From positions 1,054,001 through 1,118,000 of the forward strand of contig NZ_CP012357.1 in assembly GCF_001267155.1 (NCBI RefSeq): a stretch of DNA of 64,000 nt, written 5' to 3'. Of this stretch, positions 2,806 through 10,340 are shown in pieces. Position numbers and translations under genes: made by a program. The notes beneath the pieces were generated by a model. It made no database searches. It saw only the letters and a program-made list of their open reading frames with translations, and had not been told where the DNA came from. This DNA is from Spiroplasma litorale (GTDB lineage Bacteria; Bacillota_I; Bacilli_A; Mycoplasmatales; Mycoplasmataceae). The stretch's first letter is position 1. Each line of letters begins with the position of its first letter.

Positions 2806-4185
2806 TTATTCTCCTTTATTTAAGTCATAAATATCTACTGGATATTCTCCTGTAAATATATCAAAACATCCTTGACCTGGTTCAAATAATTTTTTTAAAT
2901 TATCTAGTGTTAAAAAACTTAAACTGTCACATCCAATATAATTTTTCATTTCTTCAAGCGACATGTTTGCAGCTAACAATTCTTTATAAGTAGATATATC
3001 AATACCATAGTAACTCGGATATTTAATTGGAGGAGAAGCAACTCTTATATGAACTTCTTTTGCGCCATTATTTTTTAATAACTTAACAATATATTTTGAA
3101 GTAGTTCCTCTTACAATCGAATCATCAATTAAAATAACTTTTTTATTATTTATAACATCTTTTATTACAGAAAGTTTTGTTCTTACTCCAATTTCTCTCA
3201 ATTCAGTTGTTGGTTGAATAAAAGTTCTACCAGAGTATTTATTTTTTATTAAACCAATATTAAATGGTATATTAGAAAAGTTTGAATAACCTAATGCTGC
3301 TGAAGTTGAAGAATCTGGAACACCAATTACAACATCACCTAAATATTTTTCTTCTTGTGATGCTAACAACTCTCCTGATTTAAGTCTAAAATTATGAACA
3401 TTTATATTGTTAATAGTACTGCTTGGATGTGAAAAATATATATATTCCATTGAACAGACATTATTGAAATTTTTTTTAGAAAAATAAAAACTTTCTAATC
3501 CCTTATCACTTATTTTTACAATTTCTCCTGGATTAATATCTCTAATAAATTGTGCTCCAGTAACATCGAATGCATAAGTTTCAGAAGAAATAACATAACC
3601 ATCTGCTAGTTTTGCAATTGATAGAGGTCTTAAACCATTTCTATCTCTAATTGCATACATTTCATTTTCAAAAATTAATATGAAGGCAAAAGCACCATTA
3701 ATTATATTTAGTGCACTCTTAATTTTTTCTATTGTTGAAGTTTCTTTACTTTTTGTTATAAGATGAGCTAATATTTCTGAATCACTTGTAGCTTGGAAGA
3801 TACTTCCTTCATCTTCAAGTTTATTTTTAATAATATGTGCATTTGTTAAATTTCCATTATGAACAAGTCCAAACTTATTATTTTTTAAATTGAAATAAAA
3901 TGGTTGAACATTACAATCAATTGATCCTCCGGTTGTTGAATAAAGTACATGACCAATTGAGTTTTTTGCATTCCAACTTTCAAAATCTTTTAATCTAAAA
4001 TTTTCTGTTACAAGTCCCATGCCTTTTTTTAAAATAAACTTTTTATCTTTGTCATAGCCTAATATTCCACAACCTTCTTGTCCTCTGTGTTGTAGAGCGT
4101 GTAACCCATAATAATTTACTAAAGGAGCTTTATCAATGTTAAAGCAACCAAACACACCACACTTCTCTTTTAAAACTTCGCTCAT
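2806..4185 (-). CDS. purF: Amidophosphoribosyltransferase PurF
   Basis: PurF makes phosphoribosylamine from PRPP and glutamine, the committed step of purine synthesis. It has 459 aa. The class II glutamine amidotransferase domain would begin at Cys9 after removal of an 8-residue propeptide (KEKCGVFG). The PRPP loop VILIDDSIVRGTTS lies near residue 350. Of the four Fe-S ligands of Bacillus subtilis PurF, two equivalents are visible as Cys, while the others are Ser (YPSYYGID) and Ile (CFDIFTG). This enzyme therefore probably lacks the cluster. One base separates it from the purC stop. Confidence 0.96.
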   Translation of the reverse strand: MSEVLKEKCGVFGCFNIDKAPLVNYYGLHALQHRGQEGCGILGYDKDKKFILKKGMGLVTENFRLKDFESWNAKNSIGHVLYSTTGGSIDCNVQPFYFNLKNNKFGLVHNGNLTNAHIIKNKLEDEGSIFQATSDSEILAHLITKSKETSTIEKIKSALNIINGAFAFILIFENEMYAIRDRNGLRPLSIAKLADGYVISSETYAFDVTGAQFIRDINPGEIVKISDKGLESFYFSKKNFNNVCSMEYIYFSHPSSTINNINVHNFRLKSGELLASQEEKYLGDVVIGVPDSSTSAALGYSNFSNIPFNIGLIKNKYSGRTFIQPTTELREIGVRTKLSVIKDVINNKKVILIDDSIVRGTTSKYIVKLLKNNGAKEVHIRVASPPIKYPSYYGIDISTYKELLAANMSLEEMKNYIGCDSLSFLTLDNLKKLFEPGQGCFDIFTGEYPVDIYDLNKGE

Positions 4186-4186
4186 A

Positions 4187-4891
4187 TTATAATTTAATTC
4201 CTTCTAACTTATTTAGGATTATTGAATAAATTGAAGTCACATCATCTAAATCTTCTCTAAAACAATCTTTATCAAGTTTACGATTATTTTCATCTCAAAA
4301 TCTACAAGTATCAGGGCTAATTTCATCACCTAAACATATATTATTTTCAGAATCTAACCCTAGTTCTATTTTAAAATCTACAACTTTAATATTAATTTTT
4401 TTAAATAAGTCAATTAATAAATTATTTATTTTAAGTGTAATGTCTTTTATTTTTTGTAATTCTTCTAATGTAGTTAAACCAAGAACAACACAATGATCAT
4501 CATTAATTAATGGATCTCCAAAGTCATCATTTTTATAGCACAATTCAAAAATTGGTTTATCAAATGTTGTTGCTTCTTTAATTCCTAATCTTTTTGTAAT
4601 ACTTCCTGCTGCTATATTTCTAATAATAATTTCAATATTAAACATTTTTAATTTTTTTACCAAAACATTTTGATCGTCTATAACTTTCAATAAATGTGTA
4701 TTTATATTATTTTTTTCTAAATACTTGAATATAATGTTTGATATTTTTGCGGTTAATACACCTTTTGACTCTATTGTCGCTTTTTTCAATTTATTAAATG
4801 CTGTAATTTCATTTTTAAAAAAAATATTTAATTCATTTTCGTTATCAGTTGCATAACATATTTTAGATTTGCCTTCATATAATTTTGTCAT
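4187..4891 (-). CDS. purC: SAICAR synthetase PurC
   Basis: PurC joins CAIR and aspartate using ATP. The protein is 234 aa, matching the single-domain family. It starts with LYEGKSKICY, the nucleotide-binding first strands, and contains GDEISPDTCRFWDENN, the SAICAR synthetase signature. The Trp in that signature is encoded by TGA at 4295-4297, and translation continues to TAA at 4187. It starts 4 bases after purL and stops one base before purF. Confidence 0.95.
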
Positions 4892-4895
4892 TTTT

Positions 4896-7800
4896 TTACT
4901 CCTCCAAGTTTAAAAAGTATCTTATTGCACTTTTAAATATATTTTGTTCTTTATTTCCATAAATGTTTTTACAAATATCTTGTCCAAATCTTTCGCTGTG
5001 TCCCATTTTACCAAGAATCAAGCCACACTTTGAAACAATTCCTTCTATATTATAGTATGAACCATTTGGATTATTATCTTCATTTAAATATTCAAATACA
5101 ATTTGGTTATTTTTTTTAAGTTCCTTATACATTGATTCATTTATAACAAATCGACCTTCACCATGTGATATAGGTATTACATTTATTTCATTTATTTTTA
5201 AATCTTGTGTTCATGGTGAAGAATTATTTACCGTTCTACAAGAAACATATTTTGAAACATGTCGATTAACATTATTTTTTATTAAAGAAGGATCATTTTC
5301 TTTTAAACCACATGGTTCCCCATAAATTAATAATCCTGATTTTAATAATGCTTGAAATCCATTACAAATTCCTAATATCAATTTTTTTTGTTTTAAATGT
5401 TCAATTAAAGCTTCTTTGACAATTTTACTTTTTAAAACATTTGATATGTACTTTCCACTTCCATCAGGTTCATCACCAAGACTAAAACCTCCTGGAATTA
5501 CAATAATGTGTTGATCTTTTATTTTATTTGCAAGATTTTTTAAAGATAAGTTGAGTTGTTCAACATTCATATTATTAAATACGAAATCTTCATAAGATAC
5601 ACTTTCATTTTTGAAAGACCTTTTAATGTCATATTCACAATTAGTTCCAGGAAAAATTATAGACATAATATTTATTTTACTTATTTTATTAGGATAATAA
5701 ACTTTTTTATTTTCTTTATAGCTTAAATCATTTAATGGTAAAGGATAATTTTGATTATTACTTAAATAGACTTTTTTAATTGGATTTAAATAACAATTCA
5801 ACGCCTTTACTTTATCAATATTAAATCCATTAATAGAATAATTGTTTGAAACAACACCTAAATAAATTAAGTTTTCGTCATTTATTTTTTCATTAGTTTC
5901 TACTATTATTGATCCATACATATAATCAAATATATTTAAATTTGTATTTATATCAAACCCTAAATCATTTCCAAAACTCATTTTTGCTAATGCTTCTGCA
6001 ATACCACCTGATTGAATTGCAAATGATGATAATATTTTATTTTCTAAAATATTTTTTTCCATTGATTTATATATATTTTTTAATTGGTTAAAGTTTGGAT
6101 AGTTATTAATTGCATTATGTTTAAATAAATATATATGATTATTTTTTTCTTTAAAGTCAGTAGAAATAATTTTATCTGATTGTCCAATTGATAATGCAAA
6201 ACTTACTAAAGTTGGTGGTACGCTAATATTTTCATAAGTTCCACTCATACTATCTTTACCACCGATTGCTGGAATATTAAATTCTTTTTGTACAATAAGC
6301 GCTCCTAATAAAGCTACAAAAGGCTTAGCTCATTTTTCTTTATCTTTATTTAATTTTTCAAAGTACTCTTGTAAAGTTAGTTTTAATTTTTTAAAGTTTC
6401 CACCTGATGCAATAACTTTTGTTATGCTTTCTATTATTGCATACATTGAACCTAATAATATATTATTTTCAAATATAAATGGATTATAACCATAACTCAT
6501 TATTGTACATATATTTTTATTATCAGATAGAGGGATTTTTTGACAACTAACTTGTACTTCTGATAATTGCTTTGTACCTCCATATGGGGCCAGAACTGTT
6601 GTACCTCCAATTGAAAAATCAAATTGTTCAATCATCGGTTTTTGTGACATAACGTTTAAACAAGATATATTAACTAAAAAATCGTTTTCTAAATTATTTG
6701 TAAAAGTCATGTCTTCTCTTTGGAAATCTTTAAATAAATTATTTGTAATTAAAACATCATTTTTATTTTTTATACCACCAGTATTTATAAAATCTCTTGG
6801 TAAATTAACAATTGTTTTATTTTTATATTCAACAACAAAACTATTTTCTGATGTTACTTCTCCTAATTTTACTGCAACTAAATTTTCTTTATTTGCTTCT
6901 TCAATAAAAGTATTTAAATTACTTTTATCAATCACAACTACCATTCTTTCTTGAGATTCTGATATTAAAATTTCTTTTCCTGATAATCCTAAATATTTTA
7001 AATGTACATTATTTAAATTAAGTTTTACACCATCAGCTAGTTCACCGGCTCCAACTCCAATACCACCAGCACCTAAGTCATTTGCTTTTTTTATAATTTT
7101 TGAAACCTTTGGATTTGAAAAAAGTCTTTGTAGTTTTCTTTCTTCAACAGGATTTCCTTTTTGTACTTCACTATATGAATTTTTGATTGAATTTTGGTTT
7201 TGGTTTTTTGATGAACCAGTTGCTCCACCAATTCCATCTTTACCAGTTGCTCCACCAACCAGTACAATTAAATCGCCTGGTTTTGGTTCTTCTCTTATTA
7301 AATTATTTATTTTTGTAACACCAACAACAGCACCAATCTCAAGTCTTTTAGCAACATAGTTTTTGTGATAAAACTCTTTAACTAAAGTTGTGGGTATACC
7401 AATTTGATTTCCATAACTTGAAAAACCATCTGCTGCGAGTTTTGAAATTTTTGATTGAGGAAGTTTGTTGCTCATTGAGTTTTGAATATCCTCTAATATA
7501 TTTCCTGCACCCGTAACTCTAATTCCTTGATAAACGTACGCTCTACCTGAAAGTGGATCTCTTATTGCCCCTCCCAGACAAGTAGCGGCACCTCCAAATG
7601 GTTCAATTTCTGTAGGGTGATTGTGCGTTTCGTTTTTAAATTGCACAATACATTTTTTATTATCATCAAGATCAACATAAATAGATGAAGCATTTATTTC
7701 ATCTGATACTTCAATGTCAATTGCATTATTTGTTTTTAACATGTATTTAATATAACTGGTTGCTATGTTCATTAGTGTTATATCTTTTTTTGAAGTTATA

Positions 7801-8558
7801 CTCTTATAATAATTTAAAGCTTCTTCAATTTTATCTTTGTAAAATGGATTTATGTTTTTATCAAAAGATATATTTTCTAAAACTGTTTCAAATGTTTTAT
7901 GTCTACAATGATCACTTCAATATGTATCAATTAAATATATTTCAGAGTCAGTTGCATTTCTTTTTAGTTCATTATTAAAATAATTAACAGTGAAACTAAA
8001 ATCTTCAAAACTCATAGCTAAATTTAATTCATAATATATTTTTTCTAATTCATTTTTATTAATGTTGTTAAAATTATATTCTATTAATTCTTGTGTAGTG
8101 AATTTTTCTTCAAATTCATTTTTATTCATATCAAATTCATAACATTCGATTGGATTTATAATATAATTTTTAATTTCTTTTAATTGGCTTTCGCTAATTT
8201 CACTATTGAAAATATATAATTTAAAAGTTTTTATTTTTGTTTTATTTAAATATAGAAGGTTACAACATTCACTTGCGCTTTCTTCTCTAGGGTTAAATTG
8301 ACTATCAAACATTTTTACTGCAAAATATTTTTTTGAGTTTAATTCTAAATCAAAACTTATATCATCAATATTTGGTTCTGCTAAAATGTAATTTGAAATT
8401 TCAGCTACTTTTGTTTTATCCTCTTCATGAACATCATAAACATTAAATACTTTTATATTTAAATTTTTTATATTAAAGTTTTTTGCTAATTCTTCTGATA
8501 ACTTTTTTGATTCAATATCAAACTCATCTTTTTTATTTATATATACTCTATTAATCAT
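4896..8558 (-). CDS. purL: Phosphoribosylformylglycinamidine synthase, single-chain PurL
   Basis: PurL converts FGAR to FGAM with glutamine and ATP. This is the large one-polypeptide type, 1220 aa, rather than the PurL/PurQ/PurS complex of Bacillus. The frame is continuous in code 4, with TGA-Trp codons near 5133, 5210, 6249-6329 and 7917. Visible motifs are KNETHNHPTEIEPFGGAAT (synthase domain, around residue 310), GGIGVGAGELADGVKL, and a C-terminal class I glutaminase domain with nucleophile Cys1065 (GICNGFQ), PGGFSLGDE and the terminal GHSERFG. The N-terminal 210 residues are the divergent linker-type domain. Its start overlaps the purK stop by 8 bases. Confidence 0.95.
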
Positions 8559-9633
8559 TTAATCCCCCTAAAATTTTTTTTACTTGGTTATATTTATCTA
8601 ATAAATCTTTTTGGTTTTTTGCAATAATGTTTATATGACCCATTTTTCTATTTTTTATAATACCTTTTTTATGATAGTCATATTTTTTTACTCAATTGCA
8701 ATCAAAATTTGTTTTAATATTTTCTCCCAAAAGATTTATCATAATAGTTTTATATTTTAATTTTGGTTTAATTATTTTTTTATTTGTAATTGCTAGTATG
8801 TGATTTTTAAATTGACTGACATTACATCCATCAAGAGTATAATGACCTGTATTATGAACCCTTGGTGCCATTTCGTTAAAATAAAATTTATTATCTTTCA
8901 CAAAAAATTCAAATGCAACTGTGCCAACTAAATTTAAATCTACTAAAACTTTTTTTATTATTTTTATCGTTTTTTTATCAACAGTTACTTTTTTATTTGT
9001 TACTTTAGACGTTATAAGAATTCCATTTTCATGTTTGTTAATAGCGTTGGGAAAAAAATATATTTGGTTTGAATTACTTCTTGTTACAACTAAACTTGTT
9101 TCATAATCAAATTCACAAAACTCTTCAAGAATATATTTATTAGAAATAAAGTTTACAGATTCTATTTCGTTGTAATTATTTATTTTATACTGACCTTTAC
9201 CATCATAACCCCCAGAGAGTGTTTTTAGAATAAATGGATATGTAATATCATTTTTATTTAATAAAGTTTCAATATCTTTTTTATTTTCAACTAAAAAAAA
9301 TTTTGTTGTTAATAATCCATTTTCTTTAGCAAAGTTTTTTTCTTGGATTCTGTTTTTTGAAATCTCTAAAAAGTTTATAGACGGTTTTACTAAGTTAAAA
9401 TATTTTTTTAATGCATCTGAGTCTATGTTTTCAAATTCGTATGTAATAACATCTGTATTAGTAACTAAATTATCAATTGCGATTTTATCATCATAATTTT
9501 TATTAATAATATTTACATTAAGATCCATACAACAATTTATTTCATTAGGTTCAAGGATAAAATATTCATTACTATTGTCAGATTCTACTAGCATTTTAGC
9601 TAGCTGACCACCACCTATAATTCCCACTTTCAT
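8551..9633 (-). CDS. purK: N5-carboxyaminoimidazole ribonucleotide synthase PurK
   Basis: PurK carboxylates AIR to N5-CAIR using ATP and bicarbonate. It is a 360-aa ATP-grasp protein with N-terminal GIIGGGQLAKML, central FILKTLSGGYDGKGQYK (ATP lid) and FNEMAPRVHNTGHYTLDG (metal/substrate signature). TGA at 8692 is read as Trp and the protein continues about 47 more residues to TAA at 8551. It lies 3 bases after purE and overlaps purL by 8 bases. Confidence 0.95.
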
Positions 9634-9636
9634 ATA

Positions 9637-10116
9637 CTAAACTACCTCTGTTTTTAAAACATTATTAGTTTGGTTTTTTATAAACTGTTCTAATTTTATT
9701 TTAATTTTTTCATTTGATAAAGAAAGAATTCTTGCAGCATAAAGTGCAGCATTTTTTGCTCCACTATCTCCAATCGCCATTGTAGCAACTGGTACACCAC
9801 CTGGCATTTGAACTATTGATAATAAAGAATCAACTCCGTTTAGATTACTTGATCTTACAGGAACTCCAATAACTGGTAATATAGTTAAACTTGCAATCAT
9901 ACCCGGTAAATGAGCACTACCCCCAGCAGCAGCAATTACAATATCATATTCTTCATGTGCATTTTTTGAGAAATTAAATAAAAGTTCTGGTGTTCTATGA
10001 GCAGATACTATTTTTGCTTCATACTCAATATTTAGCTCTTCTAATATATTTAAACAATTATCAATCGTTTTCTTGTCGGATATTGAACCCATTACTACTG
10101 CAACTTTATTTTTCAT
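9637..10116 (-). CDS. purE: N5-CAIR mutase PurE (class I)
   Basis: PurE moves the carboxylate of N5-CAIR to give CAIR and works directly after PurK. It has 159 aa, with the class I signatures VMGSISD near the N-terminus, SAHRTPE near residue 43, and [12 protein letters not shown] in the middle. It is the first gene of the operon, with ribosome-binding site AGAAAGG. The terminator and purine aptamer upstream imply transcriptional control by guanine-type ligands. Confidence 0.97.
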
Positions 10117-10133
10117 TAATTTACCTTTCTTAT

Positions 10134-10163
10134 AAAAAAAGACCCCTTATATAAAAGGAGCCC
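10134..10163 (-). terminator. Riboswitch expression platform: intrinsic terminator
   Basis: Minus-strand GGCUCCUU pairs with AAGGGGUC around a 6-base loop (10141-10162) and is followed by seven U. An alternative pairing of GAGUC (10192-10196, at the 3' edge of P1) with GGCUC of the terminator would act as antiterminator. Ligand-stabilised P1 would favour termination, giving an OFF switch. The alternative pairing is inferred from complementarity only. Confidence 0.85.
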
Positions 10164-10194
10164 ACAACAAAAATTTATGTTATTGTTATATGAC

Positions 10195-10267
10195 TCATTT
10201 TATAGAAAATAATTTAAGGTTATTTGTAGAAACGCTCGACCATATTTCAAGCATATATAAAATGATA
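10195..10267 (-). ncRNA. Purine riboswitch aptamer (guanine-type core)
   Basis: Read on the minus strand, the segment folds as a purine aptamer. P1 pairs UCAUUUUAU with AUAAAAUGA. P2 is GCUUGA/UCGAGC closing loop AAUAUGG. J2/3 is GUUUCUAC. P3 is AAAUAA/UUAUUU closing loop CCUUAAA. The loop GG and CC needed for the L2-L3 kiss are present, as are equivalents of U22, U47, U51 and C74 (xpt numbering). C74 predicts guanine-class ligands rather than adenine. Deviations are A24 to U, A73 to U and CCGUAAA to CCUUAAA. Placement before purE fits feedback control of purine synthesis. Confidence 0.88.
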
Positions 10268-10277
10268 TTATAAATTT

Positions 10278-10283
10278 ATTATA
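10278..10283 (-). promoter_or_regulatory. Extended -10 promoter of the purine operon
   Basis: Minus-strand TGCTATAAT (TGn extended -10). Transcription would start near 10271, only a few bases before riboswitch P1. No good -35 is evident, which is usual for extended -10 promoters. Confidence 0.65.
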
Positions 10284-10311
10284 GCATATCTATAAAATTC
10301 TATATATTTAT

Positions 10312-10340
10312 AAAAAAAATATAAGGATAACCTTATATTT
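10312..10340 (-). terminator. Terminator after truA
   Basis: Nine-bp stem AATATAAGG/CCTTATATT with loop ATAA. On the minus strand it is followed by a run of eight U. It ends the ecfA1-ecfA2-ecfT-truA unit just before the purine operon promoter. Confidence 0.8.

Follow-up and report, generated by a model that had tools for sequence, protein, structure and literature searches.

The pur operon of Bacillus subtilis is controlled by a guanine riboswitch through premature termination of transcription (PMC4223553), the mechanism that we also propose below. According to PMC8872408, the 2'-deoxyguanosine (2'-dG) classes carry C51, and the substitution U51C alone turns a guanine riboswitch to a preference for dG. 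In the 2'-dG-I riboswitch of Mesoplasma florum, the same source gives C at the equivalents of residues 22 and 51 (its C31 and C58), and the aptamer precedes a ribonucleotide reductase gene (nrdF). Guanine-II, xanthine-II and 2'-dG-III riboswitches keep a common scaffold with junction insertions or changed positions. According to PMC9295807, xanthine-II carries G51 together with insertions in J2-3 and J3-1, and guanine-II has a one-nucleotide insertion in J2-3 and is otherwise xanthine-II-like. No paper on pur genes or purine riboswitches of Spiroplasma was among those listed by literature searches.

Here, we analysed a 64 kb stretch of Spiroplasma DNA (the window), in which a purine aptamer lies before purE. 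Its leader shares with the guanine-I family RF00167 and the B. subtilis pur leader the three-way junction, residues U22, U47, U51 and C74 and the loop-loop pairs, and with the latter also the place before purE and a terminator/antiterminator switch. The scaffold is likewise that of guanine-II, xanthine-II, 2'-dG-III and the M. florum 2'-dG-I riboswitch, whose host is a related Mollicute; however, the purE leader has U22 and U51 where the M. florum aptamer has C. We regard it as very likely that the leader is a guanine-I purine riboswitch acting as a transcriptional OFF switch for purE-K-L-C-F-M-N-H-D.

A guanine-type aptamer on the minus strand before purE

A cmscan search of the whole window against Rfam 15 returned a single match above the gathering score, RF00167 (Purine), which covers the aptamer and its flanks on the minus strand at 10280-10183 (59.7 bits against a gathering score of 37; E = 8.4e-08 for 64 kb and 4227 families). 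Under permissive settings, other Rfam families matched in 10100-10330 all scored far below their cut-offs. The first-pass annotation had proposed a purine riboswitch with a guanine-type core before purE, to be checked with the Rfam purine covariance model; that model, the pocket residues and the identification of purE by TIGR01162 now bear it out. The interval that it marked, 10134-10267, holds an element on the minus strand, from the aptamer core at 10263-10197 to the terminator at 10163-10133.

When the whole genome (G000; 1,225,519 bp) was searched, the match at purE reached E = 3.9e-10. Only two RF00167 matches at E ≤ 1 occur in this genome, the purE leader and a second aptamer (L002; 40.9 bits, above the cut-off) upstream of a permease gene, which we take from its translation to encode an AzgA/NCS2 purine permease.

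Residue numbers follow the B. subtilis xpt scheme. Parsing of the Infernal alignment places the P1 5' strand AUUUUAUA at 10256-10263 on the minus strand, followed by J1/2 at 10253-10255, which consists of U22 (10255), A23 and U24 (10253). The P2-L2 hairpin occupies 10234-10252, and J2/3 GUUUCUAC, 8 nt long, lies at 10226-10233 with U47 at 10232 and U51 at 10228. The P3-L3 hairpin extends over 10207-10225 and leads into the two nucleotides of J3/1 (10205-10206), U73 at 10206 and C74, the guanine-pairing base, at 10205. The P1 3' strand AUAAAAUGAGU at 10197-10204, placed by the parse and by folding, is shared with the predicted antiterminator. L2 (AAUAUGG) ends in G37 and G38 and L3 (CCUUAAA) begins with C60 and C61, and the sequence thus provides the loop-loop pairs G37-C61 and G38-C60.

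The residues U22, U47, U51 and C74, which the first-pass annotation had already named, are in place both in the sequence and in the alignment, and are the same in all five orthologues. Its account of the unusual features and of the loop-loop pairs also proved correct. The leader differs from RF00167 and the B. subtilis pur leader in U24 (consensus A; U is a common alternative), U73 (consensus A) and U in place of G62 in L3. In addition, every pair of P1 (8/8) and of P3 (6/6) is A-U. The 171-nt leader folds more stably than its shuffled versions, with z = -2.49.

The leader combines the aptamer with a terminator and a predicted antiterminator

A putative extended -10 promoter element TGCTATAAT lies at 10278-10286 on the minus strand, as judged by its resemblance to the consensus, and TGnTATAAT occurs in 5/5 leaders. 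The terminator scan gave one match (10163-10140, minus strand), where 50 shuffles averaged 0.0. It corresponds to an intrinsic terminator stem-loop of nine pairs (10140-10163, minus strand), found in 5/5 orthologues, and the scan and the sequence both place a U tract at 10133-10139 behind it. An RBS-like AGAAAGG precedes purE at 10124-10130 on the same strand, with GAAAGG kept in 5/5. All five orthologues show the same order, in which TGnTATAAT lies shortly before P1 and the aptamer is followed by a spacer, a U-tailed terminator, GAAAGG and the purE start.

Folding predicts an antiterminator hairpin at 10150-10204 on the minus strand (-16.3 kcal/mol), which is exclusive with both P1 and the terminator, and a comparable hairpin in 5/5 orthologues. 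Across the five leaders, the predicted energies are -14.9 to -17.9 kcal/mol for the antiterminators and -9.9 to -12.1 kcal/mol for the terminators. In leaders cut at P1 plus six more bases, P1 is formed first in 5/5, with a probability of 0.77-0.97. In leaders ending before the 3' arm of the terminator, the P1 3' strand pairs with the terminator 5' arm with a probability of 0.60-0.85 and P1 falls to 0.00, again in 5/5. Once P1 is enforced, the terminator forms in all five. In every leader, folding thus gives a terminator that is exclusive with an antiterminator using P1.

The free fold of the complete leader varies from species to species: aptamer plus terminator are favoured in G000 (P1 0.94) and the antiterminator in G005 and G009, and G017 and G019 give a misfolded aptamer with the terminator. 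This lack of uniformity counts against the proposed switch; switching must, on the folding models, be kinetic or ligand-driven.

On the basis of these folds, we propose the following course of events. RNA polymerase would start just before P1 and make the aptamer. An ample supply of guanine (or hypoxanthine) would let this ligand pair with C74 and lock the three-way junction and P1. The locked P1 would keep its 3' strand from the antiterminator, the terminator hairpin and U tract would form, and transcription would stop before purE. At low guanine, the terminator 5' arm would instead be taken up by the P1 3' strand, and polymerase would read on into the operon. We read the OFF sign of control from the mutual exclusion of P1 and the antiterminator, and we infer that termination would be ligand-induced.

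Downstream genes and distribution of the arrangement

All genes behind the leader lie on the minus strand. purE (9637-10116) is identified by TIGR01162 (194 bits against a cut-off of 149.6). For purK (8551-9633), the best NCBIfam matches are purK models (best E 3.6e-96), all below their curated cut-offs. The long single-chain FGAM synthase gene purL (4896-8558; TIGR01857, 1356 bits) is followed by purC (4187-4891; TIGR00081), purF (2806-4185; TIGR01134), purM (1761-2804; TIGR00878) and purN (1199-1768; TIGR00639). purH (1-1194; NF002049, above cut-off) is cut at the window edge, with its remainder in L238. Beyond the edge, in L238, purH is followed by a further frame, which we take from its translation to be purD. 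The nine pur genes presumably share one transcript. Upstream of the riboswitch, on the same strand, lies truA, whose transcript probably ends at a T-run hairpin at about 10339-10311.

purE is present in 5/20 genomes of the genus and 5/60 of the family, being absent from 55/60. In each of the five (G000, G005, G009, G017 and G019), an aptamer lies before purE. The other four have all nine pur genes in unchanged order, with PurE proteins 70-74% identical to that of the window. In the class, at least 19 of the 51 genomes with purE above the cut-off have an aptamer within 400 bp upstream, a lower bound taken from the aptamer matches listed. In at least 5 more class genomes, the aptamer lies 1.8-2.2 kb upstream of purE on the same strand. 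An aptamer before purE is a usual arrangement, and the Spiroplasma purE leader is a further member of the known guanine riboswitch class in a usual place. In one class member, two purine aptamers stand in tandem directly before purE (G072:C1:395171-395487).

The genus also carries guanine-type aptamers (L002-L046) ahead of many genes for transporters and solute-binding lipoproteins, and some before HPRT, adenosine-deaminase-like and nucleoside-hydrolase-like genes; these gene names are our assumption from the translations.

Positions 24 and 73 across purine aptamers

We tallied positions 24 and 73 in 173 of 178 purine aptamers that were parsed (genus 46/46, rest of the family 83/88, wider class 44/44), among which nearby species are not independent. 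U47, U51 and A52 are obligatory for the parser and U22 is preferred, and the invariance of these four bases in the tally is therefore by construction; positions 24 and 73 are unscored. The class sample (n = 44) consists of the 30 best matches and 14 lower ones picked by hand among the matches listed, and is biased to high scorers. Five aptamers were left out, namely L201 (C51), L218 and L221 (both C47), which have no parser motif, and L208 and L219, whose parses score low. One partial family match, in G224 (model positions 21-85), also stands outside the tally. In L218 (G234:C2:344409-344503) and L221 (G225:C1:909569-909669), C47 replaces U47, and the frame behind L218 is that of a BMP-like lipoprotein.

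Of the 173 aptamers, 98 have A at position 24, 74 have U and one has G; the class sample, from the matches listed, is split evenly into 22 with A and 22 with U. At position 73, that sample has A in 44/44 (from the matches listed). The genus aptamers have U there in 20, A in 15, G in 7 and C in 4, and those of the rest of the family have A in 49, U in 26, G in 7 and C in 1. Among the C74 aptamers of the family, 64/108 have a base other than A at position 73 (genus 30/45, rest of the family 34/63), against 0/44 in the class sample. U74 (adenine-type) aptamers retain A73 in 20/21. The sole U74 aptamer among the 46 of the genus, L033 (G018:C2:642160-642256, minus strand), has U73 and lies upstream of a lipoprotein frame.

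The U24/U73/C74 combination is found in 15/173 aptamers. By their bases at 24/73, the 108 family aptamers with C74 divide into A/U 30, U/A 28, A/A 15 and U/U 15, with rarer cases of U/G 9, A/C 5, A/G 5 and G/A 1, and no covariation of the two positions as a pair is seen among them. The five purE orthologues show the same independence while their pocket residues stay fixed: three have U/U, G005 has U/A with an extra J3/1 base, and G017 has A/U. U24 and U73, considered as ligand markers, are ruled out by the tally of 173 aptamers.

PMC6649850 reports a crystal structure of a B. subtilis A24U mutant riboswitch with the guanine analogue hypoxanthine, and a calculated binding that is not weaker. 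In the adenine aptamer, A24 stacks between A73 and C54-G72, beside the pocket (PMC9588036). The ligand-contacting residues listed in PMC3764141 do not include A73. Taking together the tally, the A24U structure and the stacking role, we consider that the loss of A73 is best read as a family-wide drift of a stacking residue. A73 is a consensus base of the guanine-I class without ligand contact, and the purE leader has U73; we do not treat A73 as defining, because so many C74 aptamers of the family lack it.

Two readings give the loss of A73 more weight. It is quite unlikely that Spiroplasma and its relatives in the family hold a lineage-specific subtype, the purE leader included, in which position 73 no longer has to be A, is most often U, and selectivity among guanine-like purines is retuned. 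A family-wide shift of specificity tied to the loss of A73, for example to hypoxanthine or another guanine-like purine, is quite unlikely. The difference between the family and the class sample and the retention of A73 in U74 aptamers speak for such a shift, but that sample is biased to high-scoring aptamers and the direct ligand contacts are unchanged. Moreover, the regulated genes, namely the pur operon and genes that we take from their translations to encode an AzgA-like permease, HPRT and nucleoside-binding lipoproteins, suit guanine sensing.

Ligand and class assignment

Judged by its residues, the ligand of the purE aptamer is presumably guanine: C74 would read guanine, and U51 would fit the free base. 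Adenine riboswitches have U74 at the place of this C74. The C51 of 2'-dG-I and 2'-dG-II is U51 here, and the gene behind the aptamer is purE, not a ribonucleotide reductase gene as for 2'-dG-I. The aptamer has neither the G51 nor the insertions of xanthine-II, and its J2/3 of 8 nt lacks the extra nucleotide of guanine-II. The junctions of guanine-II, xanthine-II and 2'-dG-III are altered, whereas J2/3 and J3/1 (2 nt) here have guanine-I lengths.

The first-pass annotation had left the choice of ligand open and hinted at 2'-dG. The open choice finds no support, since U24 and A24 are equally frequent in the class sample drawn from the matches listed, the A24U structure is published (PMC6649850), and A73 is replaced in more than half of the family C74 aptamers. 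The hint is not supported either, the published marker being C51 (PMC8872408). Junction changes by themselves do not mark a new ligand class, and the unusual bases of the purE leader are common variants and no sign of a new ligand. Its affinity may be low, because P1 and P3 are all A-U, and U73 in place of the stacking A73 may also affect affinity and selectivity.

A shift to 2'-dG or guanosine through the changed J1/2 and J3/1, as in the M. florum 2'-dG-I riboswitch, is very improbable. The bases at 24 and 73 do depart from consensus, and a C51 aptamer, L201, lies before an nrdF-like gene in the same family, so such variants exist nearby. However, the 2'-dG classes have C51 and U51C suffices for the switch (PMC8872408), and all five orthologues have U51; the controlled genes belong to de novo purine synthesis and not to deoxynucleotides, and U24 and U73 are independent among the orthologues. 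That the leader is a decayed riboswitch which has lost its function and persists by chance is hardly credible: its P1 and P3 are A-U only and consensus bases are gone at 24, 62 and 73, but 5/5 leaders retain the promoter, the aptamer, the terminator and the antiterminator despite the divergence of PurE, and the intervening sequence is less conserved.

L201 (G233:C3:60902-60998, plus strand) carries GUCUCCAC with C51 and keeps U22, and from its sequence it looks intermediate between guanine-I and 2'-dG-I. In its context (L243), the nrdF-like frame is followed by nrdI- and nrdE-like frames, names that we presume from the translations. It serves as a contrast to the purE leader, which is without the C51 mark.

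Implications for purine control in Spiroplasma

The reading of the purE leader as a guanine-I OFF switch supplies a mechanism by which a wall-less bacterium would control nine purine genes as one operon; most of its relatives are without purE. According to the folding model, the operon would very probably be shut off when guanine is plentiful. The loss of A73 across the lineage offers a small testable point on how far the second shell of the pocket can drift.
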